From Caldilineaceae bacterium (GTDB lineage Bacteria > Chloroflexota > Anaerolineae > Caldilineales > Caldilineaceae): a stretch of DNA of 64,000 nucleotides. The notes beneath the pieces are model-generated. The model had not been told where the DNA came from. It saw nothing but the letters and a program-made list of their open reading frames with translations, and did not search any database. Position numbers and translations under genes: made by a program. Each line of letters begins with the position of its first letter. The stretch's first letter is position 1. The stretch spans positions 372,001 to 436,000 of the forward strand of contig JALHQH010000001.1 of the NCBI GenBank assembly GCA_022842065.1, written 5' to 3'. Positions 23,818 through 51,689 of this stretch are shown here, piece after piece.

Positions 23818-25113
23818 TTAATTATTACCATCTTTACCCACAATTGGCAAGTAGACCTTTTCAGACAGTTGGATGGGGGTCCCAATGCGAAACAGTTGAC
23901 CGCCGTGCGCGGCGACGTAGAGTTCGCCATTTTGATCCTCGCCAAAGGTAACGGGGCGTTCGAGCAATTTGCCATGTGCAGTGGCCGTCCAGCGATTCGG
24001 GGCCGTAAACAAGAGGCTCCAGAATTTCCCAGAGCAGTAATCCGCCAAGAGATAGTGGCCTTGCAGCACAGGATAAGTGGGGCCACGGTAGACATACCCA
24101 CCAGTCACCGAAGAACAATCAGCCGGGGGATTGCTCTGATTTTCCGCACGTGAATATTCAAAGATAGGATCAGTATAAACAGCAGCACAATCGGCGGGTT
24201 CAAAGTCATGGTTGCCTTCGCGACAATCCCAACCATAATTCTCGCCGCCACTACTACTGACTGATTGAAAATTGATCTCCTCCCACGCGTTCTGGCCCAC
24301 ATCACTGATATAAAGGTCATGGGTCAAGCGGTCAAAACTAAACCGCCAGGGGTTGCGCAGACCGGAAGCCCAGATTTCGCCGCGGGTATTGGGATCGCCA
24401 TCGTCGACATAAGGATTATCCGGCGGAATGGTATAGGTTGCTTTGCCCACCACATCGATCCGTAATAGTTTGCCCAACAATTCGGCCAGATCCTGAGCGT
24501 TTTCATCGGGGTCGCCCCCACTACCACCATCACCCAGGGGGATATAGAGATAACCATCAGCGCCAAAGGCGAGATCACCCGCATTGTGATTGGCATAGGG
24601 TTGATTGACTTCCAATACAATCTGCTCACTGGCCGCATCTGCTCGATTGGGATCAGCGGACGAGACGCGATAACGCGCAATGATCGTATCACCATTACGC
24701 CCACTATCAGTCGTTTGCAGGGTATAGTTGATGTAAAAGACGTTGGGATCGTTCGGTTCAAAGACCAGGCCAAGCAACCCTTGTTCATTGCTGCTGTCGT
24801 TCACGCGCTCCTGAATATCCAGGAACGGAGGATCGAGGACCGTGCCATCGGGCTGTACAATCCGGATCAAGCCCGGCTGTTCGACGACAAAAAGGCGACT
24901 ATCACCGGCGTTGGCAATGGCAACGGGCTGGTTCAAGCCAGCAGCAAAGGGGACTAATTGGAGCGTAATGGCACCGGCCGTTGAGACAGCGGCGGGCGTG
25001 GCAGCGAATGCACCCAACGCCAGCCAGGTTGCCGGCAGGAGAATCAACAAAACAAAGACAAAGGCCGAAAAGAGGGTCGCGCGCCGTTTCGGTTGGGTGG
25101 TAGACAACAACAT
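23818..25113 (-). CDS. secreted PQQ-type sugar dehydrogenase (glucose/sorbosone dehydrogenase family)
   Basis: A 431-residue exported beta-propeller enzyme that oxidises aldoses. The start at 25113 has GGAAG upstream. The signal peptide is [21 protein letters not shown]. The propeller shows the family pattern [34 protein letters not shown] (containing the catalytic-type His), [17 protein letters not shown] and YGWDCREG. The C-terminus [14 protein letters not shown] carries the LP[IL]V tail shared with two other exported proteins in the window. Cofactor use is inferred from family; no pqq genes are in the window. Confidence 0.88.
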
Positions 25114-25193
25114 GCAAAACTTCCTTTTCTTTACAAGACAGCTCACGAAGATTTAGTAGAGCACAACCGCTCCTACCGGCTCGCCAGATCCAG

Positions 25194-25217
25194 TTAGGGG
25201 CTCGTCAGATCCCCTAA
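25194..25217. terminator. small hairpin TTAGGGG/CCCCTAA
   Basis: A 7-bp stem with 10-nt loop between the amidohydrolase stop and the sugar dehydrogenase start. The flanking CTCGTCAGATCC word resembles the arms of the hairpin at 55263. Weak evidence of function. Confidence 0.3.
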
Positions 25218-25323
25218 GAGCAGGCATAGCACTATACCAAATACAGCTTTAAGCATATCATTATTGTCAGCCCACTACCCAACCATTACGCGATAGAAGC
25301 GCCACTCTCAGCCGTCAATTCGC

Positions 25324-26619
25324 CTACTTTGGCAGGGAAGCAACGATGGCCGCGCGCTTTTCGGCTACCCGGAAACAAGCATATTGATTTTCCTGCATAA
25401 AGCGGCGGGCCAGATCAATGGCGGCGCGCTCCGTCAACCACTGTGCTTCCACTTCGGCTTGCAACGCGCGTTGCAAGCCGGCGCGCGCCTGTTGCGCATA
25501 GGCCACCGCAGCAGTCGGCCAGAAAGTATCGCCGCCAAAGACAAAGAGCTTGTTGGCGGGCACGGTGTGGATGTAGCGCCGCACAAAGTCGGTAGTGCTG
25601 TAGGGGTCAATACTCCACGCCCAGCAGAGATCGACATAGACATTGGGATAGTGCTTCGCCAGCGCGATCAACTCATCACTATATGGATAGGCGATATGCA
25701 TCAGGACAAAACGGGCCGCTGGGTAACGGGCCAGCAATGAACAGAGGTTACCGGCGCGAATATAGTCGACAGGCATCCGGCTATGACCGGCGTAGTAACC
25801 AGTGTGCAATTTGAAGGGGAGGTCATAGGCAATCCCCAACTCGACGCCGCGCGCCCAACACCAATCACCCAAACAGAGCCGGTCGGCAGTGGTCATGGCG
25901 GTGGGCGTAGTGAGATAGATCTGGAGTGCGTGGGCCGCTTCCTCATCGCTGCGCTCCTGCCATTGCAGCGTGCGACTGTAGGCATGTTGCGATTTGATCG
26001 CAATCGCACAGGCCGCATTTTGCGCGAAGATCTGCTCCATTGCGGCGCGCAAAGAGGCCAGATCCTGTACGGCCACACCTGTTTCTGCGGTCACTTGCGC
26101 CAAATCAGGTTCACCATTGCAAAAGGCGACCCACGAGATATCGTAAAAGAAAAAGTCTGCGCCGCTCGTGTCGGGTAGACAGGGTCGCGTAAAGTCATCG
26201 ACCTGCACGTGGTCTAGACGCGCCTGCTCACGCAAGATCTGCAAACGCATGCCTGGTGCAACCAACCCGGCGTGGATCGGCTGGGCCGCGTCAATTGCCA
26301 CTGCGCTCAGTTCTTCGATGCCGTACACCGCTTGCGCGATCCGGCCAACGGCCTCGCCATAGCCGGTATGGCGGACGGCAGCCCACGCGCTCTCGATACC
26401 GCGGAAACGTGCACGCAGATCGGGGTTGCTTTTATCGAGCAGCGTCTTGATCGCCGCTTCACTCGCGCCAGCCACCACCAGATCGGCTGTCACATAGTTG
26501 TCAAAAAGGCTAAATAAGAGATCTGGTGCGGCAGCCAAATAGTTGGCTTCTGAGGCCAGATGTTCGTGGGTATCGCACAAGGGGGTTTCGTCAATAAATT
26601 GTTGTAGATCGCTCGCCAT
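25324..26619 (-). CDS. amidohydrolase family protein
   Basis: A 431-residue TIM-barrel metal hydrolase of the amidohydrolase-2 branch. The metal-binding HxH is CDTHEHLAS (~15-20). Later barrel-end ligands are KLHTGYYAGH, VLMHIAYPYSDE and the terminal Asp in VFGGDTFWP. It is distantly like uronate isomerases and glucuronate-type enzymes, which would fit sugar-acid use, but it lacks enough recognisable features to name a substrate. The start is at 26619. It is separated from the upstream binding-protein gene by a terminator and a 50-bp palindrome, so it is probably transcribed on its own. Confidence 0.8.
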   Translation of the reverse strand: MASDLQQFIDETPLCDTHEHLASEANYLAAAPDLLFSLFDNYVTADLVVAGASEAAIKTLLDKSNPDLRARFRGIESAWAAVRHTGYGEAVGRIAQAVYGIEELSAVAIDAAQPIHAGLVAPGMRLQILREQARLDHVQVDDFTRPCLPDTSGADFFFYDISWVAFCNGEPDLAQVTAETGVAVQDLASLRAAMEQIFAQNAACAIAIKSQHAYSRTLQWQERSDEEAAHALQIYLTTPTAMTTADRLCLGDWCWARGVELGIAYDLPFKLHTGYYAGHSRMPVDYIRAGNLCSLLARYPAARFVLMHIAYPYSDELIALAKHYPNVYVDLCWAWSIDPYSTTDFVRRYIHTVPANKLFVFGGDTFWPTAAVAYAQQARAGLQRALQAEVEAQWLTERAAIDLARRFMQENQYACFRVAEKRAAIVASLPK

Positions 26620-26650
26620 CAGGTTTTCTCCGTTCTGTCGTTTAGCCAGA

Positions 26651-26700
26651 GTGTAGAGATCGTAGCGGCACGGTATACCGTGCCGCTACGATCTCTACAC
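26651..26700. repeat. 50-bp perfect palindrome
   Basis: 26651-26700 equals its reverse complement with no spacer. The inner part (CGTAGCGGCACGGTA and complement) differs from the palindrome at 12408 at only a few positions, so both belong to one dispersed family. It lies just downstream of an intrinsic terminator and before the amidohydrolase start. Confidence 0.85.
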
Positions 26701-26706
26701 CCAATC

Positions 26707-26736
26707 AAAAAAGCCGCCCAGACGAGCGGCTTTTTT
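26707..26736. terminator. intrinsic terminator of the binding-protein gene
   Basis: Stem AAAAAAGCCGC (26707-26717) pairs with GCGGCTTTTTT (26726-26736) around an 8-nt loop. It has a GC-rich stem and U tract on either strand. It lies 40 nt beyond the stop of the minus-strand binding-protein gene. It is the only canonical terminator of this kind that I found in the window. Confidence 0.85.
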
Positions 26737-26775
26737 CTAAAATTGGTGGCTGGCAAACACCAGTCACCAAAAGGT

Positions 26776-28158
26776 TTATGGCCGTTCGAGATCCAACACT
26801 TCCTGCACCTTGTCGATGATAACCTGAGCATGCTCTTCCCAACCAACCTGCCCTTCCCAAACGAGGTCGATCTCGTTCTGGAAGACGGTGTTGGCCTCGG
26901 TAAAGCGCGTGTTCTTGGGCATGGGGAAAGGCTCAATGCCGGCGGTGAGCAGCGAATCAGCAACGCCAAACATGCGGTTGACTTCATTGACCTTGGCATC
27001 GGTCCAGGCCGACTTGTGGCCATTCGGCTGGAGTTTGCCTTCGAGCACCATTAAGACACCAGCCTCACCGGAGGAGTAGAGCTTGAGCAATTCCCAGGCC
27101 TCTTCCGGATGGGCCGTATTGCTGTTGATCATATGTTGGTTACCGGAGTAACAGGTGCCCTGGCGGCCTTCTGCACCCACTGGCAAGAGGACAGCATCCA
27201 TCTCAAATTGATCACCGACCGTGGCGAGGAAGGTGGCTAAGGTGCCAACCGTGCTGGCATGGGTCGCATTTGCGCCGGCGGTGAAGAGACCACCAGCCCC
27301 ATTGTTGATGTAGTCGGGGATGCGTGGGGCCACTTTGCTGTCTAGCAGGTCAAGATACCAGGCCCCGAGTTCGCGATGCAGGTCATTGTTAAAGTTCAGC
27401 GCCGTGCCATCCTGATTCATCACCCAGCAGTCGGTCGAATCCGGGCTGCCCCACGAGCGGGCAAAGTTGCTATAGTAATGCAAGGCGTTCATGCTATCAA
27501 AGCCCAAGCCAAAGGTGCCGGCACCGGGATCCGCCGCGGCTTTGGCCAATTCGGTCCAGTCCGCAACCGTCCAACCATCAGTGGGTACCGGCAAGCCTTT
27601 GCTATCGAGCAAGGTCTTGTTATAGTTGACGACGATGTTGCCGCCGGGGTGAACGACACCGGGAATGCTAAAGTTTTTGCCGTCGAGCGAATTGCCGGCC
27701 ATGATGCTCGGATAGATATCATCATAGTCTGCGGGCGCATCCGAGGCCAGCAGATCATCAATACCCAGATAGATGCCCTTGAGGAAGTTGATGAAGAGCC
27801 AGCGATGGTGACCATAGAGGAGATCCTGCAAGGTACCGGAGATAAAGCCGGTCTGCGTCTTCGTTTCGATTTCACCGTAGATGGTCTCTTCGATCACAAC
27901 CGTAACGCCGCTATCGGCCTGGAAGCGCTCAGCCAGCATCGTTGGCATGACACTTTGCCCTGCTTCTGGCGGGACCTGCACACGCAGGGTAACGTCGGTC
28001 GCGGCCGGGGCCGCGCCGGCATCGGTCGTGCTGGGGGCCTCGCCAGCCGGGGCCGCAGCGGGCACACAGGCGGCCAACAGTTGCAGGCTTGCGGCACCCA
28101 CGCTAGCCGCCGCCACACCTTGCATAAAGCTGCGGCGGGTGACTTTTTTCTTCAGCAT
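26776..28158 (-). CDS. ABC transporter substrate-binding lipoprotein, Tat-exported
   Basis: A 460-residue family 1 extracellular solute-binding protein. The start at 28158 has AAGGAG upstream. The leader KKKVTRRSFMQGVAAASVG is a twin-arginine signal, followed by LLAAC, a lipobox, so the protein is folded before export and then lipid-anchored. The body has TDVTLRVQVPPEAGQSVMPTMLAERFQADSGV and the usual hinge pattern. No permease or ATPase gene is adjacent, so its transporter is elsewhere. The gene stands alone, with 432 nt upstream and its own terminator. Ligand probably a carbohydrate. Confidence 0.9.
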   Translation of the reverse strand: MLKKKVTRRSFMQGVAAASVGAASLQLLAACVPAAAPAGEAPSTTDAGAAPAATDVTLRVQVPPEAGQSVMPTMLAERFQADSGVTVVIEETIYGEIETKTQTGFISGTLQDLLYGHHRWLFINFLKGIYLGIDDLLASDAPADYDDIYPSIMAGNSLDGKNFSIPGVVHPGGNIVVNYNKTLLDSKGLPVPTDGWTVADWTELAKAAADPGAGTFGLGFDSMNALHYYSNFARSWGSPDSTDCWVMNQDGTALNFNNDLHRELGAWYLDLLDSKVAPRIPDYINNGAGGLFTAGANATHASTVGTLATFLATVGDQFEMDAVLLPVGAEGRQGTCYSGNQHMINSNTAHPEEAWELLKLYSSGEAGVLMVLEGKLQPNGHKSAWTDAKVNEVNRMFGVADSLLTAGIEPFPMPKNTRFTEANTVFQNEIDLVWEGQVGWEEHAQVIIDKVQEVLDLERP

Positions 28159-28590
28159 ATTCGGTCTCCTTATAATGTTTGATTGATAAAACAGAGATCG
28201 TACAGGAAGCAATTAAAATTGATACGACCGTTCAGATTTACACGACCAGAAAGCCATTCCCACAGTTTATACGCGGTGCTGTCATCATTTACCATTTTCA
28301 CCCGTGTAGAAAATGCGTAATGATGACAACCGCTGGTATATATCGCGTGGTGAACAGCGGTAATGTGGTTGTCATTACGTGTCGAAACCTTATCGAAAAT
28401 CTATGTGCAATCGACTGATGCGATGGGAAAAGCTGTCAGAATGGTTTCGGATGTGAAATCTGGACCTGATTCGGGAGAATCGATGGCATATATAAGCCAA
28501 CTTTACCATCTTTGCCAAGGTAAGTCAAACAGCTTTTTGGACGATAAAGCGCAGCTTGCGTTGTGCAGAGTAGCCCCGCTGGCGGGCGGC
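28159..28590. other. 432-nt intergenic region upstream of the binding-protein gene
   Basis: No gene is supported here. It holds an imperfect dyad (GTAATGATGACAACC near 28317 against GGTTGTCATTAC near 28370), probably regulatory for the binding-protein gene. The 3' end of the nitroreductase transcript also falls in it. No clear terminator or operator is recognised. Confidence 0.35.
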
Positions 28591-29235
28591 TTACCAACGA
28601 TCCCAATGCACCACATCGTCCAGCGCTTTACGCTTGGCCGGCTGAAAGTCATCACCGGTGTAGTAGGCCACTGGAATCAACGCAGCCTGAGTAACTGTGG
28701 CCGGAATACCGAGCAATTCGCTAACCGCTTGTTCGTGGGCAAGATGGAGAGTGGTCCAGACCGAACCCAAACCGCGGGACCGCAGTGCCAACATCAGCGA
28801 CCAGGTGGCAGGCAGGATCGAGCCATAAAGCGATGCCTGTGCCATTACATCCAGCGCTTCGACGCGCCCTTCAATACAGGGGATAATATGAACGGGGACT
28901 TGATGCAGATGTTTTGATAAATAGACCGCGGATTTGAGCACGCGTACGCCCTGCTCAGCGGCTGGTTCAGCACGCAAAGGTTGTAATTCCTCGGGTTGGG
29001 CCCCGACCAGGTAACGTTTGAAAGCCTGGCGATAGTAGTCGGCGACCACCTGGCGCTTTTCGGCATCGGTGATCACCAGGAAGTGCCAGCCCTGGCGGTT
29101 CGAGCCACTAGGCGCTTGCAGCGCCAGGCGTAGACATTCCTCGATCACCGCCCGTTCCACTGGACGCGTCAAATCCAACCGCTTGCGTACAGAGCGAGTG
29201 GTCGAGAGCAGATGATCGACGGTGGTAAGATCCAT
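28591..29235 (-). CDS. nitroreductase family protein
   Basis: A 214-residue FMN-dependent oxidoreductase of the NfsA/NfnB superfamily. The N-terminal FMN-phosphate binding segment is TTRSVRKRLD, followed by LRLALQAPSGSNRQGWHF, a family hallmark. The C-terminal AYYTGDDFQPAKRKALDDVVHWD fits the usual final helix. The start has AGGAG upstream. It reduces quinones, nitroaromatics or similar compounds with NAD(P)H. It appears monocistronic. Confidence 0.9.
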   Translation of the reverse strand: MDLTTVDHLLSTTRSVRKRLDLTRPVERAVIEECLRLALQAPSGSNRQGWHFLVITDAEKRQVVADYYRQAFKRYLVGAQPEELQPLRAEPAAEQGVRVLKSAVYLSKHLHQVPVHIIPCIEGRVEALDVMAQASLYGSILPATWSLMLALRSRGLGSVWTTLHLAHEQAVSELLGIPATVTQAALIPVAYYTGDDFQPAKRKALDDVVHWDRW

Positions 29236-29623
29236 GTGGCACTCCTAGTGGCTGATAATATGACACGCTTGAGAAATAACCTCAAGACTTACGCCGGTAG
29301 CGGCGTAAGTCCTACACCTATTGTAGCAGTGCTTTTACTGACAGCCAAGCGCCCTTTCACCGGTACCGGACTTCCATAGGAGATAGACCGCAACGTGTAG
29401 TGCGTATCCTTAGATGCGTACGGGGGTCTGCATCTGAGGATGCAGACCATACGGCGGTCTACACTGTGGTCTACAATGCGGTCTACGGATGATAAAATGA
29501 CAATTCACATCTACCATTTGGTTTCTATCCTACTTCGGTTGCTGTTATACTTAGCCTGCTCAGTAACATTCAGTAAAGCAGCTGTTGAATCAGGTCTAAT
29601 TCCTTACCCGAAAAGGAGCAATG
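29236..29623. other. intergenic region with two small hairpins and the hexomutase promoter
   Basis: Contains a hairpin 29287-29310 (ACTTACGCCG, 4-nt loop) and another at 29425-29448 (GGTCTGCATC, 4-nt loop). The second is followed by three copies of CGGTCTAC or TGGTCTAC words. An extended -10 lies at 29543. No gene is supported. Confidence 0.5.
29543..29551 (+). promoter_or_regulatory. extended -10 promoter of the phosphohexomutase gene
   Basis: TGTTATACT matches TG-n-TATA-T with one change from TATAAT. Transcription would start near 29558, giving a ~65-nt leader to the ATG at 29624. No convincing -35. Confidence 0.4.
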
Positions 29624-31054
29624 ATGAGTGATATTAAATTTGGCACCGATGGTTGGCGTGGTCGGATTGGCGATGATTACACCTTTGCCAACCTGCGCCG
29701 CTGCGCCCAAGGTTTTGCCGGCTATTTAAAGGCCCAAGGCAAAACGGGTAGCGTCGTGATCGGCCACGACCGCCGCTTCCTAGCCGATGCTTTTGCCGCC
29801 GCGGCCGCCGAAGTGTTGGCCGCCAATGGCTTCCATGTCTACCTCACCGACAAGGCCACGCCAACCCCGGTGATCAGCTTTAGTGTGGGCAACAAGGGTG
29901 CATTGGGCGCAATCAACATCACCGCCAGCCACAACCCACCCGAAGATTGTGGCTTTAAGGTGCGCGATGAGTTCGGCGGCGCCATTGCCCCCGACGGGCT
30001 GAAACAGATCGAAGCCGCCATCCCCGCCGCAGACGACAAAGACGCGATCAAGCAGGTCAAATTTACCGACGCGGTCAAGGCCGGCCAGATCACCATTTTT
30101 GATGCCAAGCCCCCCTACCTCACCCACCTGGCCACGCTCATTGATGTCGGCCCGATTCGCCGCGCCGGGTTGAAGGTGGTTGTTGATAACATGTGGGGCA
30201 ACGGGGCCGGTTGGCTTACCGAAATCCTGGGTGGTGACAAGACGGAAATCATCGAAGTCCATGCCGAGCGCAACCCGATCTTCCCCGAAATGAGTCGCCC
30301 CGAGCCGATCCCGCCCAATGTGGACGCTGGCCTGGCCGCGGGCAAAGCCGCCGGTGCGGATTGCGTCTGCATTATGGATGGCGACGCCGACCGCTGTGGC
30401 TTTGGTGACGAAAATGGCAACTTCATCGACCAACTGCGCGTCTACGGCTTACTGGCCTATTATCTGCTGGAAGTGCGCGGCGAGCGCGGCGCGATTGTCA
30501 AAACCCTGAGCACCACTTCCATGCTCGACAAACTGGGCAAGATCTATGGGGTTAAAGTGGTCAATACCGGCGTCGGCTTTAAATATGTGGCGCCGGCAAT
30601 GATGGAGCATGACGCCCTGATCGGCGGCGAAGAGAGTGGCGGTTACGCCTTCCACGGTCATGTGCCGGAACGCGATGGGATCGTTTCCAACCTCTATCTG
30701 CTGGATCTGATGGTACGTACCGGCAAAAAGCCCACCCAACTGTTACAGGCCCTCTTTGAGAAGGTCGGCGAACATTTTTATGATCGCATCGACACTCGCC
30801 TCACCGACGATGCCATGAAAAAGGCCGCACAACAGCGGCTCAACCAGGTCACAATCGACGGGTTAACCCTGGGTGGCCATGCGGTAACGCAAAAAGATAC
30901 AACTGATGGTTACAAGTTTGTCATGGATGATGGCGGCTGGCTGCTCGTCCGCTTCTCCGGCACCGAGCCGTTGATCCGCGTTTACACCGAAACCACTGAC
31001 CAAGCCGCCGTCCCGGCGATTTTGGCTGATGGCAAGAAGCTGGCGGGGCTGTGA
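29624..31054 (+). CDS. phosphoglucomutase/phosphomannomutase family protein
   Basis: A 476-residue alpha-D-phosphohexomutase interconverting hexose 1- and 6-phosphates. The second of two adjacent ATGs (29624) is preferred for its spacing to GGAG. All four family loops are visible: the phosphoserine loop [10 protein letters not shown] (Ser102), the metal loop [10 protein letters not shown], the sugar-binding loop [13 protein letters not shown], and the phosphate-binding [12 protein letters not shown]. The enzyme supplies sugar nucleotide and glycogen metabolism. A word-repeat hairpin follows immediately. Confidence 0.95.
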
Positions 31055-31060
31055 TGCAGG

Positions 31061-31152
31061 GAAATCGGTAGAACAGTAAATCGGTAGAACAGTAAATCGG
31101 TGTACTGATTTACCGATTTACCAATCTACCGATTTACTGTTCTACCTGTTTC
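31061..31152. terminator. word-repeat hairpin downstream of the phosphohexomutase gene
   Basis: 31067-31087 pairs perfectly (21 bp) with 31126-31146. The arms are made of AGTAAATCGGTAGAAC words related to those at 20457. It begins just after the stop codon, so it is likely the transcript end. Confidence 0.7.
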
Positions 31153-31225
31153 CTCATTCTGTGCAAGCTGAACTACCGTCTTCGATGGAAAGCTGTGATA
31201 AAATGAACAACCGCAAAATTATTGC

Positions 31226-32143
31226 GTGTTTGAAAAGGGACGCCAAGTTATTGTGAGCCAAACCACCGCTCAGTTACCGACTGAGCACTTACCGGCCGTG
31301 CTGGTTGATAGCCATTGTCATCTGGACATTGATCAGTTTGATCTTGATCGGGAAGCCGTCGTGGCGCGAGCGCGGGCAGTTGGTATGCGGCTAATCATCA
31401 ATCCTGGCATTGATCTGGCGCATTGTCGCCAAGCTTTAGTGCTAGCCGAGCAATATCCGGAACTCTACGTGGCCGTCGGCATCCATCCGAACAGCAGCGC
31501 CGGGGTTGGCATGGAGACAATGGATGAAATCCGCAAGTTGGCCACTCATCCGAAAGTAGTCGCGATTGGAGAAATTGGGCTCGACTACTACTGGGAACAG
31601 GTAACACACGACGAACAGGCACGGCTTTTTTACTGGCAACTCGAATTGGCCGCCGAAGTTGGCCTACCTGTCATCATTCACAACCGCGATGCCACCGCCG
31701 ATACCGTGCAGATCCTGGCCGACTGGGCCCAAAGTGCAGTCACCCGCAATTCTCCCCTTGCTGGCCGCCCATTTTGGGGAGTATTACATGCCTTTGGGGG
31801 CGACATTGCCCTCGCCCGGCAAGCCTATGATTGGAACTTTGTGATTGGTATGGGCGGCCCCGTAACCTTTCGCAACGCGAAGGCGCTCCATGAATTGGCC
31901 CCGCAGCTCGATCTGGATCGCCTGATGCTGGAGACGGACGCGCCGTACCTGACGCCCCATCCCTACCGGGGCAAACGCAATGAGCCAGCCTATGTGGCCT
32001 TTATTTGTGCCCAGCTGGCACAGTTGGGACAGTGTTCACCAGCAGTGATTGCCACCCAAACAACCAAAGTCGCCTATTCCTTTTTTGGACTGGAGGATCA
32101 GTTTGACGCTGTATCCCAACCAACTTTATTCGCAACGAACTAA
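31226..32143 (+). CDS. tatD: TatD family hydrolase
   Basis: A 305-residue metal-dependent 3'-5' exonuclease/DNase of the TatD family, TIM-barrel fold. Motifs are HxH in [32 protein letters not shown] and [19 protein letters not shown]. The start is uncertain: GTG at 31226 is used, but GTG at 31253 gives a protein beginning closer to the usual family N-terminus. Neither has a strong ribosome site. It overlaps none of its neighbours and is followed by the polyprenyl synthase. Confidence 0.88.
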
Positions 32144-32225
32144 TCCGGTGCACAGCAGATCTTATCCCCCCTTGCCGGCGTCGCCACCAACGAGCACGCC
32201 AACAGGGAATGCAGAGGAAGCCCAC

Positions 32226-33248
32226 TTGGCAGAGATGCAACCTGTCGATATCAAACAATTGTTGGCACCGGTCCAACCGGCATTACAACAAGTAGAAGCT
32301 AAAATGAAGGCGGTCGATGCTGTCATTCTGGCGCCGCTGGCCAATGCCTTTCTTGATCTGATCGGGAGTGGCGGCAAACGGTTGCGCCCAGCATTAGCTT
32401 TGTTGAGTGCAGGCATGCAAGGCAGCCAACCCGTGCAAAGCCAGGTGTTAGCGCTGGCGGCGGCCGTCGAGATGCTGCATACAGCCACGCTGGTTCACGA
32501 TGATGTGATCGATGGGGCGCTCTTACGCCGTGGCTCGCCCACCTTAAATGCCCTCTGGAGCCGGGGATCAACGGTGCTGGCCGGCAATTATATGTTTGGC
32601 ACCGCGGCGCACTTTTCGGCAGAGACCGAGAATCTGCGCGTCATTCGCCTCTTTAGCGATACCTTGAAGGTGATCGTGGATGGCGAGTTGCACCAATTGC
32701 AGGATCGCTATAATTTTGACCAGGCCAAAGATGCCTACTACCAGCGTATCTATGCGAAGACTGCCAGTCTTTTCTGCGCGGCTACTGAAGGAGCCGCCAT
32801 TTTAGCCAATTTTAGTGTAAGCACCATCCAGCAGTTGCGCGACTATGGTTACTACTTTGGCATGGCATTTCAGATCATGGATGATGTGCTCGATTTTACC
32901 AGTGATGAAATGACTTTAGGCAAACCGGCCGGCAGTGATCTATTACAGGGCACCTTAACCCTGCCATTCTTCTACTTTCTGCAGCAACAGGCTGATCCCG
33001 CCGCCTTGATCGCCCATTTACAAAGCCAACGCCAGCTTGCCGACGACGAAGAGACGCCCGCCATCTGGCAAAGTACAGTTGCCCAGCTCGTCCAGACCTT
33101 GCGCCAGACCACTGCCATCGCAGCGGCGCAAGAAGAAGCCCTACACTTGCTTGATCAGGCACGCGCCAGCCTGCACGATTTGCCGCCAACCCCTAGCAAA
33201 AACGCCCTGCTAGGGCTCTGCGATTTTGTGGTCGAACGGCGTTATTAG
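32226..33248 (+). CDS. polyprenyl diphosphate synthase
   Basis: About 340 residues from a TTG at 32226, chosen because GAGGAAG lies five bases upstream; ATG at 32235 is the alternative. It is an all-helical trans-isoprenyl synthase. The first Asp-rich motif is [10 protein letters not shown] with [10 protein letters not shown] before it, and the second is [12 protein letters not shown]. It extends isoprenoid diphosphates with IPP; the length fits the hepta-/octaprenyl synthases that make menaquinone tails. The short gap to TatD and the 9-nt gap to the GT2 gene suggest one transcript. Confidence 0.92.
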
Positions 33249-33257
33249 TCCTAACCC

Positions 33258-34316
33258 ATGTCTACCCAACCAGTCGATCTCTCGATTATCATCGTTACTT
33301 GGAATGTGTGGGGACTGTTACAGGCTTGTCTACACTCACTCGAAAGGTTGAGTCGCGCCGACACCGCAGCGCCAACCCACCGCTACTTTGGTCCTGCGGC
33401 CACACCGCTAACGCTGGAAGTAATTGTGGTCGACAATGCCGGTAGCGATGAAACCGCGACCATGCTGCCCATGACCTTCCCCTGGGTACGCTTCATCCGC
33501 AGTGCAACCAACCAAGGCTTTACGGGCGGTAATAATTTGGGCTATGCCGCCAGCCAGGGTGAAGCGATCTTCTTCCTCAATCCCGATACCGAACTGATGC
33601 CAGCTGGGTCGATCACTACGAGTGATGGTGCCCAAAGCACGGTTGATCCCCTCTGGCAACTCTATCAAGTCTTAGCGCAGGATCCCCAGATTGGGATGGC
33701 TGGGCCACAGTTACGCTATGGTGATGGCAGCTGGCAGAGCAGCCGTCGCCACTTTCCAACCCCACTTACCGGCTTTTGGGAGAGTACCTGGCTGGCCCAG
33801 AGCTGGCCTGAAAATCCCTGGGCGCGCCACATGCACATGCGCGACGTGGCGGCCACGGCACAACACGAGGTTGATTGGCTAAATGGATCGGCGATGTTCT
33901 GCCGGCGGCGCGCGCTGGCAAGTGTGCAGATGCCCACCTTCAGCGGCCCTTTTGATGAAGGCTTCTTCATGTACAGCGAAGAACTTGATCTCTGCCAACG
34001 GCTCAAGCGGGCGGGCTGGCGGATTGTCTACGCCCCACAGGCGCAGATCATTCACTATGAAGGGCGCAGCAGCGAACAGGTCGTTGCGCGGCGCCACATC
34101 ACCTTTAACCAGAGCAAGCTCTACTACTACCGCAAATATTTCGGTCGGGGGTGGGCCAGCACGTTACGCCTCTATTTACTCCTTGAATATCGGTTACAAT
34201 TGTTGATTGAAACCGCCAAACTACTGGTCGGTCACAAGCCGGCCCTACGCCGCGCCCGGATCCATGCCTACCGCCAAGTACTCCAGAGCGGTCTCCACAG
34301 CACGCCCCAAAGCTAA
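33258..34316 (+). CDS. glycosyltransferase family 2 (rhamnosyltransferase-like)
   Basis: A 352-residue GT-A glycosyltransferase. IIVTWNVWGLLQACLHSL is the first strand, VVDNAGSDET the nucleotide-binding Asp region, and FLNPDTELMP the DxD-like site. FDEGFFMYSEELDLCQRLKRAGWRI is the typical acceptor-side ED motif of WbbL/RfbF-type enzymes. No membrane helix is obvious. It starts 9 nt after the polyprenyl synthase stop. It probably adds a deoxysugar to a cell-surface glycan. Confidence 0.9.
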   Translation: MSTQPVDLSIIIVTWNVWGLLQACLHSLERLSRADTAAPTHRYFGPAATPLTLEVIVVDNAGSDETATMLPMTFPWVRFIRSATNQGFTGGNNLGYAASQGEAIFFLNPDTELMPAGSITTSDGAQSTVDPLWQLYQVLAQDPQIGMAGPQLRYGDGSWQSSRRHFPTPLTGFWESTWLAQSWPENPWARHMHMRDVAATAQHEVDWLNGSAMFCRRRALASVQMPTFSGPFDEGFFMYSEELDLCQRLKRAGWRIVYAPQAQIIHYEGRSSEQVVARRHITFNQSKLYYYRKYFGRGWASTLRLYLLLEYRLQLLIETAKLLVGHKPALRRARIHAYRQVLQSGLHSTPQS

Positions 34317-34422
34317 CGCTAACATTACAACATAATGCACAGCTTGACAGGATACTGTTAGGTCAAACGACGCAGAATTCACGTAAGCTAGCGCTACATC
34401 GCCGCACCACTACGGCACTCCC

Positions 34423-34460
34423 ATGCCTGCTGTCACTTGTTGTGTCCTGACAGCAGGCAT
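34423..34460 (+). terminator. terminator hairpin after the GT2 gene
   Basis: ATGCCTGCTGTCA (34423-34435) pairs with 34448-34460 over 13 bp around a 12-nt loop, followed by TCTTACCATTT. It is about 110 nt beyond the GT2 stop and just before the kelch gene's ribosome site. Confidence 0.6.
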
Positions 34461-34487
34461 TCTTACCATTTGCCTTGAGGAGCATTT

Positions 34488-35666
34488 ATGCCCAGATCAA
34501 TCGCTTTAATTACGGTGAAACGTACCGATAGTGTCGTCACGATGGCGAATACGGCCACACAGCCAAGTATCATGCCGCGCAAGCCCAGCAACAACAAAGC
34601 GCGCCTGGTTATGCCGCAAACGCACGGACGCGCCCTGATGGGTGCGGGGATCGCCGTGCTTTTGGCCTGCGCGCTCTATTTGCTCGTGGTAACGCCACAG
34701 CCACTCCGTTCACAGGCAAACGCTAACATCGAAAGCTGGCTACTACTCCCCCACATGCCCCTTAGTCTGGCAGACCCGGCCCTCAGTCTGGTCGGCGATG
34801 CTGTACACATTGTTGGTGGCTTTAGTGCCATGGGGCCGGCAACGGCACACCTGCGCTTTGACACCGAGCAGCTGCAATGGACTGAGCTACCACCACTGCC
34901 GATTGCACGCGCCAATGCCACAGCGGTTACCATTGACGGCAACCTCTATGTGATTGGCGGCTACAACAGTGACCGTGGCGGCGCGCGCAGCGATAATCAC
35001 CGCTATAATGTTGCCGCCCAACAGTGGAGCACCGCCACCGCCGCCCTGTTCCCAGCCAGCGGGGCCGGTAGTGCTGTCGTCGATGGCGAAATTTTACTTT
35101 TTGGTGGATTTGACAACCAGACCGAAAGCACGGCGGTGCAGCGCTATAGCCCAAGCAGCGACAGTTGGACGCTAGGGACGCCGATGCCCTTGGCCCGCTC
35201 CGAATTTAGTGCCGTCACTGTGGATGATCAGATCTATCTGATCGGCGGTAATGTGCTGAGCATTACTAGCAGTGCCGGGGTCACGCCCACTATGAAAGCC
35301 TTATCTTCCACGGTCGTCTCCGTTTACGACCCGCGCCAGGATAGTTGGCGCGAGGTAGCCCCGTTACCCGTCGGGCGTGTCGCCTATGCTGCCGCGGTAC
35401 GGGCGAACCAGATCTTTGTGATTGGCGGCAGCGATAAGTGGGTCAATGGCACGATCCAGGCAACGGTTTTGGTCTATGATATCAGCAGCAACACGTGGGC
35501 CTATTCTGCCCCGTTGCCCATGGTACGCAGTGGTCTGCGCGGGGTGGCCGTCCAGGACAATCTCTATATCTTTGGTGGTTATGGGGACAATGGTTACATT
35601 TATTCGACAGCCGCCAGCTTTGGTCAACTCAGTAGCAAGATCCATCTGCCCCTGGTGACACGGTGA
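34488..35666 (+). CDS. secreted or anchored kelch-repeat protein with LPLV tail
   Basis: 392 residues, start with GAGGAG upstream. A ~45-residue basic N-terminus precedes one hydrophobic segment (LMGAGIAVLLACALYLLVV), an uncleaved anchor or a signal peptide with a long n-region. A six-bladed kelch propeller follows, marked by the repeated Gly pairs in HIVGGF, YVIGGY, LLFGGF, YLIGGN, FVIGGS and YIFGGY. The last residues are SKIHLPLVTR, the same kind of tail as at 23818 and 37624. It is likely a surface or periplasmic binding protein; the ligand is unknown. Confidence 0.85.
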   Translation: MPRSIALITVKRTDSVVTMANTATQPSIMPRKPSNNKARLVMPQTHGRALMGAGIAVLLACALYLLVVTPQPLRSQANANIESWLLLPHMPLSLADPALSLVGDAVHIVGGFSAMGPATAHLRFDTEQLQWTELPPLPIARANATAVTIDGNLYVIGGYNSDRGGARSDNHRYNVAAQQWSTATAALFPASGAGSAVVDGEILLFGGFDNQTESTAVQRYSPSSDSWTLGTPMPLARSEFSAVTVDDQIYLIGGNVLSITSSAGVTPTMKALSSTVVSVYDPRQDSWREVAPLPVGRVAYAAAVRANQIFVIGGSDKWVNGTIQATVLVYDISSNTWAYSAPLPMVRSGLRGVAVQDNLYIFGGYGDNGYIYSTAASFGQLSSKIHLPLVTR

Positions 35667-35681
35667 GGTTTGCGGTTAAAC

Positions 35682-35721
35682 AAAGAGTGGAGACGCGGTA
35701 CAAGCAGCGTATCCACTCTTT
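35682..35721 (+). terminator. terminator hairpin after the kelch gene
   Basis: AAAGAGTGGA (35682-35691) pairs with TCCACTCTTT (35712-35721), with GACGC/GCGTA partly extending the stem inward and ATTTCTCTC beyond it. Sixteen nt after the kelch stop. Confidence 0.65.
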
Positions 35722-35895
35722 ATTTCTCTCATCGCATCACGATGGCACTTTCCGCCCACTGCATGATCAAACGGCTGCACATCCACACAAGGCAATTACT
35801 TAAAAGCATAGAATGGGGCGACGGTTGCGCCCATCAAACGCAGCAAATGCAACATATCGTTTTTCCTTCACCGCTGGCTGGTGTATACTACTGCT

Positions 35896-36936
35896 ATGAA
35901 TGACTCGACCGTCAACCGGCGCTTGACCCCCTGGCATCGCTTTCTCGCCCGCGGCTTTGAAGATACCGTTGGGCGCGAGCAGGTGTTGGTGAAGAGTGAA
36001 TCCCCCATCGGCAGTGAGCCACCGAAAGTGGATACCGTGCTTTTGCGCCGTGAAACGGCGACCTGGACAGGAGCGCAGCGGGCCTTGTTGCCGGATGGCA
36101 TCCGTGATACCGATGCACAAACGATTTTGATTGAGTTCAAGTACACAGAATCGCTAACGCTGGATGCGTTCTGGCAAGCAATCGGCTATGACCATTTTTA
36201 TCGGACGAATCATGAATTAAGCCAGGACGAAGTGCGCACCTTCATCCTTTGCGCCAAAACGCCCCAATCAGAACGGCTGGCGGCCTTTGGCTTTGAAGTG
36301 ACCGCACTGCCGGGCATCTATCAGAGTGAGAATATTTACGTCGCGCATATTACTTTGCTCGTGCTTAACCAGTTGCGCGACGAACCGCACAATGCATTGG
36401 TGAAGGCGTTTGCCAGCCGGTCGCAGGAAAAAGCCAAAGCGTTCCGCTTGTTGCGCCGCTTTTGGCGCTTAACCACTGAATTGTTGTTGATGTTTGAGGT
36501 TTTGCAGGCCATCTGGTCTTTACCGGAAGGAGCTACCATGAATGAAATCTTGACCCCCGAACGTGTGCTGGAAATCGGGCAGGAATGGAAGCGCATTTTA
36601 TTGAGTAATTTACCCGCGGAAGAACTTGATGCGTACATTAACCCGGACTACAAGCGCGCCCTCCTGACTGCAGGTCATGAAGAAGGGCGTGAAGAAGGGC
36701 GTGAAGAAGGGCGTGAAGAAGGCGAAGCGGCGCTGTGTAACACGCTGAAACAGATACTCCAACGCCGGTTAGGGGCAGTCCCGCAATCCATTAGCGCGCG
36801 ATTGCACCAGTGTACCCTGGAAGAGCTCAACGCCCTCGTCAACCTGGCCTTTGATGCCACGACTTGGGCCGAGTTTACGGCCGCCCTACCAGAGAAGACG
36901 GACAGGGGCTCGCCAAAGGGTTTGACTCGGCCATGA
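35896..36936 (+). CDS. Rpn/PDDEXK-type nuclease-like protein with EEGR repeats and DUF4351-like C-terminus
   Basis: 346 residues. The N-terminal third resembles the PD-(D/E)XK fold of transposase-associated Rpn-like proteins: PPKVDTVLLRRET supplies Asp, and AQTILIEFKYTES supplies the Glu-x-Lys. After a helical middle comes HEEGREEGREEGREEGE, encoded by a 12-nt tandem repeat at 36679-36726. A C-terminal DUF4351-like segment follows (LKQILQRRLGAVPQSISARL). The start at 35896 lies six bases after TATACT, so the mRNA may be leaderless. Such proteins are multicopy in Chloroflexota and Cyanobacteria; their role is unclear. Confidence 0.75.
   Translation: MNDSTVNRRLTPWHRFLARGFEDTVGREQVLVKSESPIGSEPPKVDTVLLRRETATWTGAQRALLPDGIRDTDAQTILIEFKYTESLTLDAFWQAIGYDHFYRTNHELSQDEVRTFILCAKTPQSERLAAFGFEVTALPGIYQSENIYVAHITLLVLNQLRDEPHNALVKAFASRSQEKAKAFRLLRRFWRLTTELLLMFEVLQAIWSLPEGATMNEILTPERVLEIGQEWKRILLSNLPAEELDAYINPDYKRALLTAGHEEGREEGREEGREEGEAALCNTLKQILQRRLGAVPQSISARLHQCTLEELNALVNLAFDATTWAEFTAALPEKTDRGSPKGLTRP
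36679..36726 (+). repeat. 12-nt in-frame tandem repeat (EEGR codons)
   Basis: Three perfect copies of GAAGAAGGGCGT and a fourth degenerate one. Being a multiple of three, copy-number changes would lengthen or shorten the Glu/Arg linker without breaking the frame. Confidence 0.9.
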
Positions 36937-37623
36937 TCGTCGACATGATGGAGTTGCCCGTGGCTACGGTGTAGCTAGTGCTGTAACCTGACTAAGTGAC
37001 GCAAAACAAAGAGGGGACAGGCGATTGAATCGCCTGTCCCCTCTTTGTTTTGCGATTATTTGGGGGTGCCGTAGTAGTACAAATCGAAACGGCAGGCAGC
37101 TTTATAACGTTGACCAATGAACTTGAAGTTGGTTTAAGTTTTTCGCATTTCTCACCTAAAGCTGCTGTAACCTCACCTATATCTAGTTACAGAGACTACC
37201 CCTTGCGCCTCAGATATACTCAGTGTGACATGGTTGGGTTGCTTGTAGCACATGAATGAGCCGACCATCACTGTCTCCACTTCGCATTCTTCACTGCTCA
37301 CCGTTTGACCGTATCTCATAATTACTTTGATCTGCGCTCTGCGGCGCGATCGCAAAATGACACATGCTTGTAGATAAAATAATTTTAAGTCAACGGTAAT
37401 TCAACGGCACCAGTGTATATATTAGCAACAAATCTGTTACAAATGTTGCAGCAAGTTGGCGCAGAAATCTATAAAACTGATGGGAACATTCAGCAACCTT
37501 GTAACGTAATAATATATAGCTGAACAAATCGTTTGAACGGTAGATTTTAACCGCAGATTTTGATAACACCAGTCGCCATCATAGAAGTGCCCACAACGGG
37601 GCAGAGAGATCAAAGGAAGCACC
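36937..37623. other. 687-nt non-coding region with a 55-nt palindrome
   Basis: Apart from the palindrome at 37000-37054, I see no gene. The remainder is clearly more AT-rich than the neighbouring coding DNA, and its short open frames have no recognisable features. The segment 37490-37560 is AT-rich (AACGTAATAATATATAGC) and probably contains the promoter for the secreted protein at 37624. Confidence 0.5.
37000..37054. terminator. 55-nt near-perfect palindrome
   Basis: 37000-37026 pairs perfectly with 37028-37054 over 27 bp around one base. The outer arm CGCAAAACAAAGAGGGG resembles in style the AACAAAACCGAAG arm at 1482. It lies 63 nt past the stop of the Rpn-like gene. Confidence 0.7.
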
Positions 37624-38172
37624 ATGCGCAAGGCATTCGCCACATTGAACACCGGTAACAGCGCCAACCAACGGCCGCAAACATGGGGCTGCCAGCCAAT
37701 CCGGCCCTTGGCCACGGTTTTACAATCCACCGCACGCCGGCTCTTTAGCACCCTTGCGTTGTTGCTGCTGTTACTCGTTGCGACCCTACAACCCAGCTTT
37801 GCCCAGGACGGGGCGCGCCAAAGCGAGGGAACCGAACAAGTAGATCTCCTAGTCTTCGCGGCCGAACAGCAAGATGAGTTGGTGCAAGTTGCGTGGCAGG
37901 TAGGGGCACAATCCCACAGTTGGAATTTTACAGTCTATCGCAGTGATGGCCGTGACTTTACGGCTGCCGAGCCGGTCGATGCCCCCATCTTTTCTTCGTC
38001 CAGCACCGACAGCCCTGTGATTCACTACTCGCTCAGCGATGAGAGTACCACACCCGCCACCTATTATTGGTTGGTTGCATTGAACGGCGAAAGCAACGAA
38101 CAGGTTTTGGGACCCTATACGGTGCAACAACGGCTGGCCTTATTTCTGCCACTGGTCTTTCAAAATCGTTGA
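37624..38172 (+). CDS. small secreted protein with Ig/FN3-like body and LPLV tail
   Basis: 182 residues, start with AAGGAAG upstream. A signal peptide with a long n-region (LFSTLALLLLLLVATLQPSFAQ, cleavage about after SFAQ) precedes a single beta-rich domain. Alternating strands such as VQVAWQV, SWNFTVYRSDG and TYYWLVALN suggest an FN3- or Ig-like sandwich. The C-terminus LALFLPLVFQNR matches the LPLV tail of two other exported proteins here. No enzyme motif or close family is recognised. It is convergent with the YyaL-type gene. Confidence 0.72.
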   Translation: MRKAFATLNTGNSANQRPQTWGCQPIRPLATVLQSTARRLFSTLALLLLLLVATLQPSFAQDGARQSEGTEQVDLLVFAAEQQDELVQVAWQVGAQSHSWNFTVYRSDGRDFTAAEPVDAPIFSSSSTDSPVIHYSLSDESTTPATYYWLVALNGESNEQVLGPYTVQQRLALFLPLVFQNR

Positions 38173-49652: not shown

Positions 49653-51143
49653 TTAGATCGCGCCTTCCGCCTCAATACTCTTGCGCAGCCCGGTCTTCTC
49701 TTTCTTCGGCACAAAGGTGCGCAGGGCGATGCGGACATTGCGCGGCAGGTTCATCCAGAAATCTTTGGTCTTCATGCGGCGGATGATCGGGGAAGGGCGC
49801 AGGTAAAATTGGCGATAGGCTTTGCGATACATCTCTTCGACCAATTCGGCAGTCATCTCGCCCATTTCGTAGCGCGCCTGCTGCTCGAAGAAGACATAAT
49901 CTTCCCAGTCGTTGATCAGGAAGCGCCCCTGGCGTTTGACCATCTCGTAGACCTTGGTGCCGGGATAGGGGGTCATCATCGAGAAGTTGGCGATCACAGG
50001 GTCGAGTTCGATGGCGAAATCAATCGTCTTTTGCATCGTCTCGCGCGTGTCGCCGGGCAACCCAATAATAAAGAAGCCGATCGTCTCCAGGTTGATCTCT
50101 TTCGAATTCTGGAAGGCCTGGCGAATCGTCTCCATGTCGATCTTCTTGTCGATGCTCTTCATGATCTCTAGATCACCGGTTTCGACCCCAAAGGCAGTGC
50201 GCTTGAGGCCGGCCTGTTTAAGCAGCGAAAGCAGTTCCTTGCTGGCCAGGTTGGCGCGAATGCCGTTGACAAAGATCCAAGGCACATGGTTGAGCCCATT
50301 TTCGATGATCATGTGGGCGAGCTCTTCCAGGCGTTTGACGCGGATATTGGCGCTGTCATCGAGCACACCGATCTCCTGTGCCCCAAAATCTTCGACCAGA
50401 TGGCGCCACTCGGCCAGCACATTTTCGGGGCTGCGGCTGCGCCACTTAATTGGCATAATGCTCTGGCTGCAGAAAGTACAGCGGTAGGGACAGCCGCGGC
50501 TGGTCATAATGCTAAAGCTGCGCGCCCCGTCAACGTGGTCGGTCGCAGGCTGCAAATTGGTATAATGGTCCATCTTAAACAGATGGTAGGCCGGCCAGGG
50601 CAGGCTATCGAGATCGGCAATGGGGGTGCGATCCGGGTTGTTGTGGATCTGGCCGTCGCTGGTCTTGTAGGTGACGCCAGGGCAGTCGGCGAAGATCTCG
50701 TTTTCCGCGTGCATAAACGCTTCGGTGCTGAAGTGCGGCTGATCCTGCATAAAGGCTTCGACCCGTTTGCAGACTTCGATCCAGCTCTCCTCACCCTCAC
50801 CGCGCACGACAATGTCGACGTAGGGCTTCTCGCAGCTTTCCTCCGGCAACACGCTGACATGGGGGCCACCCAGCACAATCGGGCAATCATGGGCTTCGCG
50901 GATATCACGCGCCGTGCGCCACGCCTGTTTCACCTGCGGCGTGTTGGCGGTGATCCCGACCACATGGGGCTTATATTCCTGGACAAATTCGGCGACCGAC
51001 TGCTTTTCAATATCACAGTCAAAGATCACCACTTCATCGCCGCGCCGTTCGCTGACGGCGGCCAGATAAGCCAGCCCCAGATGGGCCGTTGTGCGTGTAT
51101 CAATCGGGAGGCGAAACCGTGGGTTAATCAGGGCAACGCGCAT
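49653..51143 (-). CDS. B12-binding-domain radical SAM protein (paralogue B)
   Basis: 496 residues, start with AGGAGG upstream. Same architecture as paralogue A: cobalamin-binding-like domain (HLGLAYLAAVSERRGDEVVIFD, VLGGPHVSVLPEES), radical SAM core with TSRGCPYRCTFCSQ (Cys218, 222, 225), GFFIIGLPGDTRETMQ and a helical tail. Shared segments such as [20 protein letters not shown] show tandem duplication. It is the first gene of the cluster. No substrate can be inferred from neighbours. Confidence 0.9.
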   Translation of the reverse strand: MRVALINPRFRLPIDTRTTAHLGLAYLAAVSERRGDEVVIFDCDIEKQSVAEFVQEYKPHVVGITANTPQVKQAWRTARDIREAHDCPIVLGGPHVSVLPEESCEKPYVDIVVRGEGEESWIEVCKRVEAFMQDQPHFSTEAFMHAENEIFADCPGVTYKTSDGQIHNNPDRTPIADLDSLPWPAYHLFKMDHYTNLQPATDHVDGARSFSIMTSRGCPYRCTFCSQSIMPIKWRSRSPENVLAEWRHLVEDFGAQEIGVLDDSANIRVKRLEELAHMIIENGLNHVPWIFVNGIRANLASKELLSLLKQAGLKRTAFGVETGDLEIMKSIDKKIDMETIRQAFQNSKEINLETIGFFIIGLPGDTRETMQKTIDFAIELDPVIANFSMMTPYPGTKVYEMVKRQGRFLINDWEDYVFFEQQARYEMGEMTAELVEEMYRKAYRQFYLRPSPIIRRMKTKDFWMNLPRNVRIALRTFVPKKEKTGLRKSIEAEGAI

Positions 51144-51689
51144 GAATCTATTTCCTCCTACAGGACAGCTAGCTGCTGTTATCTTAAGTGCGCTGTGTCA
51201 AGAGCGAAGGCGGCTTATTGCGATCGCCATCGTTACTGTTCAGTCGTCAGTAAGCAGTGGCCAGCGAGCAGTCGCCCATCCAATCTGCGCGCATTGTACC
51301 ATAGGCCGCGGCCATACCCAAATTTTTATGAAAGATTTTATAAAATTTACCTACCACTGGTAGCAGGCGGTAAAAAGGTCTGATCGGCGTGTAAAAAGGC
51401 AAAATCCCAAAACCTTGTCACAGGATTGTACAAGCTTATTGTAATAGACGGTGGGACCTGGCCTACTGTTCCCCCCACTTTGTAGTGAGGAAAGTTCCGG
51501 CATAGGTTAGCCGGAATTCAGGGGATTGAAAAGATCACCCTGGGCTAAAGCCACAGGGCTACCCAACAACGCCGGGTAAACCCGGCTAAGGGAGGGGATT
51601 TACCCGACGTTGTCCTGGAGCCCGGATGCCCACTGGGCGCGTTTACGGCGGGGCGGGCTGTCAACCCCCTAAGCTCCCATTGAACTTAA
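51144..51689. other. non-coding region with several successive hairpins
   Basis: No gene supported. From about 51476 to 51680 successive small inverted repeats occur: CCCACT-TTGT-AGTGAGG; TTCCGGC-8 nt-GCCGGAA; CCCTG-GGCTAAAGCC-ACAGGG; and ACAACGCCGGGTAAA with TTTACCCGACGTTGT (15 bp, one mismatch). It could be a structured RNA or a cluster of REP-like elements. I recognise no known RNA family. Confidence 0.35.

Follow-up and report, generated by a model that had tools for sequence, protein, structure and literature searches.

Whether a few residues at the very end of otherwise unrelated exported proteins may act as an address is the question raised by a 64,000-nucleotide stretch of a Caldilineaceae contig (Chloroflexota; GenBank JALHQH010000001.1, positions 372,001 to 436,000; hereafter the window). 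Three of its genes, encoding a dehydrogenase-like protein, a kelch protein and a small protein, end in similar tails built on an LP core. Judged from sequence comparisons with other genomes, such tails are real and form a short signal, confined strictly to the C-terminus, that exported proteins carry in part of the Chloroflexota; the three in the window are looser examples. With a probability of roughly 0.77, it is a targeting signal, for sorting or retention, of proteins that have already been exported by the Sec pathway. The proteins that bear the tail are extracellular enzymes or resemble adhesins; it makes up their extreme C-terminus, preceded either by a linker or immediately by a domain, and is not accompanied by a transmembrane (TM) segment.

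Among the 51 window genes given by our own gene caller, the pattern [FYHW]LP[LIVM][VI] occurs in the last 16 residues of three, compared with 0.036 expected from its internal density (one match in 17,152 residues of the window proteins). The corresponding Poisson P of 7e-6, like the P of 0.0014 obtained for a broader tail pattern with 0.21 expected, is descriptive only, because the pattern was picked after the tails had been seen. Export was called with a simple script of our own (the signal rule), which is crude and misses at least one lipoprotein-like solute-binding protein (26776–28212). By this rule, all three tail genes fall within the four genes called exported, and the pattern is absent from the 41 ‘cytosolic’ and the six membrane genes of the window. 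The first-pass annotation of this DNA, which had reported like-ended tails on three exported proteins and on no cytosolic one, was thus confirmed on both counts (Table 1; the small protein ends in LALFLPLVFQNR). A fourth open reading frame (ORF) with such an end (KIYLPLVAGGKKV), located at 50286–51383 on the forward strand, is antisense to a radical-SAM gene (49653–51143, reverse strand), was not retained among the called genes and very probably does not represent one. Taken alone, the window makes a suggestive case for the tail, the weight of which comes from other genomes.

Table 1. Tail-bearing genes of the window and their parts (window positions; aa, amino acids)
Feature	Position	Strand	Basis
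PQQ-type glucose/sorbosone dehydrogenase-like (GSDH-type) exported protein, 442 aa, tail-bearing	23818..25146	-	PF07995 at residues 71–414, E 3e-37; signal rule
Dehydrogenase C-terminal tail and stop: YLP-type core YLPIVGK, then four extra residues, DGNN	23818..23853	-	Sequence
Kelch beta-propeller exported protein, 392 aa, tail-bearing	34488..35666	+	Five Kelch_1 stretches, E 1.8e-45; signal rule
Kelch C-terminal tail IHLPLVTR and stop (protein end SKIHLPLVTR); canonical spacing, His in place of Tyr/Phe	35640..35666	+	Sequence; homologues
Small exported protein of 182 aa, built of a signal peptide, a single FN3-like domain and the tail	37624..38172	+	Alignment of 11 sequences including its own
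FN3-like domain of the small protein (limits approximate; the name is ours)	37840..38127	+	hhalign
Small-protein C-terminal tail FLPLVFQNR and stop	38143..38172	+	All 11 sequences have FLPL; the final residues vary

Outside the window, in a subset of the Chloroflexota, the tail has the eight-residue consensus h-[YF]-L-P-[LVIM]-[VI]-x-[KR]-COOH. In 16 tail-rich genomes, exactly two residues follow [VI] in 191 matches, compared with 10 for a reversed-pattern control, while the counts for one residue (12 against 25) and three residues (35 against 23) lie near the control; these genomes were picked by two-residue matches, which favours that spacing. A mild excess at three residues was observed in two genomes (G004, 12 against 4; G015, 7 against 2). 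High positional information is restricted to positions -8 to -1, both in 79 ends of M4 metallopeptidases and in 45 tail proteins from stretches read around tail matches (the anchored set), with a preference for [VIL] at -8, Tyr or Phe at -7 and Lys or Arg at -1; selection of the sequences imposed -6, -5 and -3 in both sets, and in the anchored set the DNA search also imposed most of -7 to -1, position -8 being free of imposition. Upstream of -14, the M4 set retains the conserved end of its own family. The two to seven mostly polar residues that the first-pass annotation allowed after the LP core are a looser definition than the signal obeys in other genomes, where two residues follow as a rule.

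The distribution of the tail was surveyed with the pattern [YF]LP[LIVM][VIM], followed by two codons (the second basic-like) and TAA or TAG, the reversed pattern serving as the control. Matches were found in 51 of 201 Chloroflexota genomes and are concentrated in few of them, the top six giving 44 against 2 in the control, 24 against 1, 20 against 2, 17 against 1, 12 against 1 and 10 against 0. At least three matches and more than twice the control were present in 20 genomes; G172, with 15 against 11, was not classed as tail-rich. Among 26 further genomes, those of named loci, Ardenticatena showed 7 against 0 and HGW-Chloroflexi-10 showed 14 against 3, and the seven of the 26 that are not Chloroflexota had at most two matches. 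No tail excess was detected in 100 Actinomycetota genomes (14 against 30). The tail is, in short, recurrent in part of the Chloroflexota, with numbers of the order of tens per genome.

Export of the tail proteins was assessed in the anchored set, which comprises 37 stretches from six genomes with 43 tail genes. By the signal rule, 34 of these are exported, seven are ‘cytosolic’ and two are partial, compared with 72 exported and 341 non-exported among the other complete genes of the same stretches (Fisher 2e-17); the enrichment among signal-peptide proteins that the first-pass annotation had proposed to test in other Chloroflexota was observed in these stretches. Inspection of the seven ‘cytosolic’ tail genes by eye revealed coding sequence upstream in another frame for three (L114, L134 and L136) and a contig end for two (L113 and L147), leaving L117 and L142 unexplained. 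In arbitrarily placed 400 kb stretches of G065 and G138, none of 348 ‘cytosolic’ ORFs carries the tail; the G065 stretch has no true tail in 295 ORFs and one broad-pattern match, in a membrane protein, and the G138 stretch has one tail in 257 ORFs, at the end (RLFIPIITRV) of an exported protein of 1205 aa. With these 0 of 348 and with 7 of the 41 classified anchored genes, the motif is not equally common in cytosolic proteins; equal frequency there had been named in the first-pass annotation as an outcome that would refute its proposal. In G065, moreover, exported tail proteins have neither a lipobox (0/15) nor a C-terminal TM segment (0/15), which are found in 6 and 7, respectively, of the 26 other exported proteins, and their median length is 789 aa, compared with 349 aa for the others.

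The window kelch protein and its eight closest homologues (P0001–P0009, 42–77% identity, P0008 being named Caldilineaceae) end in I[HY]LP[LVT][VI] plus two or three residues. Of the other 75 among the 84 kelch homologues listed, 74 lack the broad tail pattern; by eye, non-tail homologues end with the propeller or with C-terminal TM segments, and five of the 84 carry PF18962, a tail domain of the type IX secretion system (T9SS). Among relatives of the dehydrogenase, L003 (Ardenticatena) ends in WHFLPMVHQ and L001 in WINMPLIQKK, and no such end was present at 17 other Chloroflexota loci (among 28 of 80 loci; L007 is in the wrong frame); several Bacteroidota relatives have, by eye, an end like a T9SS C-terminal domain (CTD). 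The M4 metallopeptidase of L144, to which P0096 (named Oscillochloridaceae) is 100% identical, provided the largest family: the tail was found in 86 of the 120 homologues listed out of 647 found, with exactly two residues after [VILM] in 68 of the 86 and Lys or Arg as the last residue in 69. In homologues P0208–P0215, the YLP tail is replaced by a [VL]PD[LM]S-TM-Arg tag, which indicates that another C-terminal tag can fill the same slot. The tail of the M4 homologue P0120, YLPLIVR plus SLKP, resembles that of the window dehydrogenase, in which a canonically spaced core is followed by further residues as though an earlier stop had disappeared.

Several observations weigh against a targeting signal of this kind. 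The spacing of other genomes (two residues after V, the last one basic) is followed in the window by the kelch tail only and is broken by the small protein, with four residues after V, and by the dehydrogenase, with six (YLPIVGK, then DGNN). A Caldilineaceae chromosome of 5.1 Mb (G001, locus L055) does not rise above the control with narrow patterns (0 against 2, 1 against 1 and 1 against 1), although the Caldilineaceae-like lineage of the window has tails, and in G001 the tail has either been lost or is differently spaced. The kelch homologue P0057 ends in HLPGIPL, so chance ends do occur. Furthermore, the anchored stretches and the 16 tail-rich genomes were chosen by the tail pattern, and genes and signal peptides were called by simple scripts of our own. 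Finally, the scarcity of tails in the arbitrary stretches implies that most exported proteins of these genomes lack one. The proposal that the tail is a sorting or anchoring signal is still well supported, because it occurs on exported proteins with unrelated bodies, at a near-fixed spacing, without other anchors (in G065) and in only some Chloroflexota.

The same proposal held the signal to be undescribed, which is not right, since the tail is already curated as a putative sorting motif: NCBIfam 20.0 contains two models under the name YLP-box putative sorting motif, NF050076 (sort_motif_YLP) and NF053834 (ultrashort_CTERM). These models cover the same residues at the extreme C-terminus and match the tails of tail-rich genomes, whereas the window tails are below the cut-off or unmatched, and the model names are silent on machinery. 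At C-terminal cut-offs of 15 bits for NF050076 and 10 bits for NF053834, and with HMMER filters that lose short matches, five of six 39-residue ends from tail-rich genomes match a YLP-box model, two passing NF050076 (17.0 and 16.7 bits) and four passing NF053834 (14.7–16.4 bits). As full-length proteins, the tail proteins of L122, L116 and L118 reach 13.0, 14.2 and 13.2 bits, respectively, with NF050076, all below the cut-off; with NF053834, L122:10000-12369 (10.8 bits) and L116:6048-9731 (12.9 bits) pass and L118:7219-8997 is unlisted. P0096 likewise remains below the NF050076 cut-off (11.7 bits). Of the window tails, taken as the last 39 residues, that of the kelch protein gives 13.3 bits with NF050076 and the other two are unmatched; the full-length window proteins have no NF050076 match, and NF053834 matches none of the window tails in either form. 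No scanned homologue of the kelch or small protein and no end of a C25 peptidase (see below) matched the YLP-box models. The last 39 residues of the antisense ORF 50286–51383 score 14.9 bits with NF050076, and such a score on a probable non-gene implies that single matches to models as short as these, with 11 positions, mean little. Literature searches, covering titles and the starts of abstracts, yielded no publication on the tail.

As a targeting signal, the tail would act after Sec export and removal of the signal peptide, when the free C-terminus would be bound by a surface receptor or a processing enzyme. Such a reader would presumably recognize the Pro-containing strand together with the basic residue at the terminus and the carboxylate of that residue; recognition would lead to retention, attachment or release of the tail protein. 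In the Caldilineaceae-like lineage of the window, what follows the core is less constrained. Among possible readers, the leading candidate, though a tentative one, is a cysteine peptidase of the C25 family that resembles PorU and whose gene adjoins those of tail proteins in several genomes. A fuller scheme, which we regard as doubtful, is T9SS-like sorting without an outer membrane, in which the YLP tail would be the signal and a surface C25 peptidase would cut or transfer tail proteins and attach them to the cell surface; C25 would itself bear an often degenerate tail, its gene lying beside one for a large tail protein and one for a DUF11 protein anchored by a TM segment. The tail does share with the type A CTD of T9SS the lack of a TM segment, the occurrence on multidomain extracellular enzymes and the presence of a PorU-like C25 in the same genomes. 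The type A CTD, however, is a domain of about 80 residues, as opposed to eight for the tail, and the tail genomes lack Omp85 and encode C25 proteins that score well under the PorU cut-off.

The C25 family (PF01364) was singled out by a comparison of 16 tail-rich with 16 large match-free genomes, hand-chosen from the genome counts, in which it was present in 15/16 and 1/16, respectively. However, the C11 clostripains, a substrate family, gave 13/16 and 0/16, and the correlation alone is not specific for C25 because tail-rich genomes share both ancestry and substrates. The co-occurrence with candidate enzymes, put forward in the first-pass annotation as a check, thus pointed to C25, with C11 nearly equal and with sortase, exosortase and Omp85 not fitting. 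Over the 201 genomes, C25 occurs in 30, including 18 of the 20 with at least three matches and more than twice the control (the exceptions being G061 and G128), and 12 of the 30 lie below the tail threshold; P values were given no weight, as the genomes share ancestry. G128 is tail-rich (6 against 0) without a C25 or C11 match and is an exception that any proposed machinery must account for. The C25 assignments themselves are firm, with scores above 23 bits, E values down to 6e-92 and 2e-95 and the conserved His and Cys present in 23 of 24 proteins. The T9SS sortase PorU model NF033707 is the best NCBIfam model for these proteins, but all ten that were scanned score 67–246 bits, under its cut-off of 420; the C25 protein of L122 (173.5 bits) also matches the PorU structure PDB 6za2 (E 2e-12).

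The principal alternative, that C25 is merely another tail-bearing substrate, like the gingipains among T9SS substrates, and that a different envelope protein reads the tail, has in our view an even chance of being correct. Besides the parallel behaviour of C11, the tail-rich G128 and the C25 genomes under the threshold, it is favoured by the ends of the C25 proteins, 19 of 24 of which have by eye a tail or a degenerate tail, some of them canonical (YLPLVSR, FLPVIRR). Against it stand the PorU-like character of C25, the often degenerate state of the tail in gene-linked C25 proteins and the gene neighbourhoods: at 8 of 41 C25 loci read (in G106, G065, G016, G138, G122, G196, G038 and G047), a separate tail gene adjoins the C25 gene or lies one gene off, and in two more (G082 and G114) a neighbour ends in FAPMTTR, which brings the total to 10/41. 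The near-identical ends in G106, G038, G047, G082 and G114 mean that these five loci, clearly close relatives, are not independent. PorU itself carries a CTD. The C25 data are as compatible with a substrate family as with a PorU-like processing enzyme that bears a signal of its own; given the C11 control, no stronger claim is permitted. Directly upstream of C25 in L122, L221, L224 and L228 lies a gene for an exported DUF11 protein (confirmed by Pfam in these four) with a C-terminal TM segment and a basic end, possibly a membrane partner of C25; in L236, L240, L246 and L247, the protein in this place has a similar end. The gene order C25, sortase, large protein with IPATG or IPAAG and a TM segment was seen in L217, L220 and L251; L222 is truncated by the end of its contig behind the sortase gene. 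A scan of the families encoded around tail genes returned broad families only, such as response regulators and ATPases.

Another proposal, that the tail sets protein stability by shielding the C-terminus from a tail-specific extracellular protease or exposing it to one, would agree with the C-terminal position, the terminal Lys or Arg and the mostly exported state of the tail proteins. A stability tag, however, would be expected on most exported proteins, and tails are carried by a minority, which makes this role unlikely.

That the tail is structural, closing each protein's fold or a common FN3-like domain as its final beta strand or as a cap, is suggested by its strand-like alternating hydrophobic pattern and by the FN3-like domain that precedes it in four anchored proteins and in the window small protein. 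The bodies are too varied for this to be at all probable. Pfam families found when 20 of the 43 tail proteins were scanned include N-acetylmuramoyl amidase, clostripain with NHL and PKD, GDSL lipase, trypsin, thermolysin, M23, endonuclease/phosphatase with LTD, beta-helix, DUF11 and others, with four of the 20 left without a family. Once the tail has been cut off, clustering of the last 150 residues of the anchored proteins yields groups of 4, 2, 2 and 2 and otherwise singletons, and tails come after M4 peptidases (where the preceding stretch appears helix-like by eye), kelch blades, FN3-like domains and Thr/Pro-rich linkers. A near-exact distance to the stop is, moreover, no property of a strand. 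The ordinary last strand that the first-pass annotation had named as a possible undoing of its claim is thus not what was found, since the tail follows several unrelated folds and linkers.

Still less probable is that the tail represents a truncated LPXTG-like substrate, with LP[LIV][VI] as the cleavage site of a resident sortase. Like LPXTG, the tail would be a C-terminal sorting signal of Sec-exported surface proteins built around LP; sortase matches (3–8 each) are present in all 16 tail-rich genomes, and a C25 gene adjoins a sortase gene at L217, L220, L222 and L251. Sortases are, however, also found in 14 of the 16 tail-poor genomes, and the tail lacks Thr-Gly, a TM segment and a basic tail: instead of being followed by a TM helix and a basic cluster that would hold the protein in the membrane, the motif terminates the protein. 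Separate LPxTS-TM-basic proteins are present in the same genomes: within the part of 20 sortase loci that was read, they adjoin the sortases of L188, L192 and L205, and none of the sortases has a real tail gene as its neighbour.

The tail also resembles PEP-CTERM, the partner of exosortase EpsH, in being a tag common to unrelated exported bodies and sporadic by lineage (PMC1569441). PEP-CTERM is described there as having a TM helix and a basic cluster and as occurring with EpsH and an outer membrane (PMC1569441), whereas EpsH (PF09721) was detected in 3 of the 16 tail-rich genomes and in 1 of the 16 tail-poor ones, and exosortase was rejected as the tail machinery. A BAM-type beta-signal or T9SS CTD for an outer membrane, which a short C-terminal signal with an aromatic residue might recall, is hardly tenable, as Omp85 (PF01103) has no match in any of the 32 genomes (7 of 14 control genomes match) and those tail proteins that belong to a family are soluble enzymes of several domains or resemble adhesins, and are not barrels.

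To our knowledge, every published bacterial C-terminal sorting tag is either a domain or a motif plus a TM helix. A tag of eight residues, placed strictly at the C-terminus of Sec-exported proteins, would be a bacterial counterpart of the known C-terminal tags of the SKL and KDEL type. It would also allow surface proteins to be predicted from sequence in poorly cultured Chloroflexota, and, through the link to C25, which enzyme reads the tail can be tested directly.

The small protein of the window has no Pfam or NCBIfam family match, and a profile search of the PDB with its FN3-like domain gave no matches up to E 1. The cluster of four among the anchored tail proteins corresponds to an FN3-like domain with the pattern ..GASYRW.D...YxYWLVExELDG..NEYGP.., which is also found before the tails of C25-linked proteins. 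The body of the small protein is homologous to this C-terminal domain of large Chloroflexota tail proteins (hhalign probability 96.8%, pairwise E 2e-10, A1 against A3), and the small protein is thus a minimal version of them, composed of a signal peptide, that domain and the tail.

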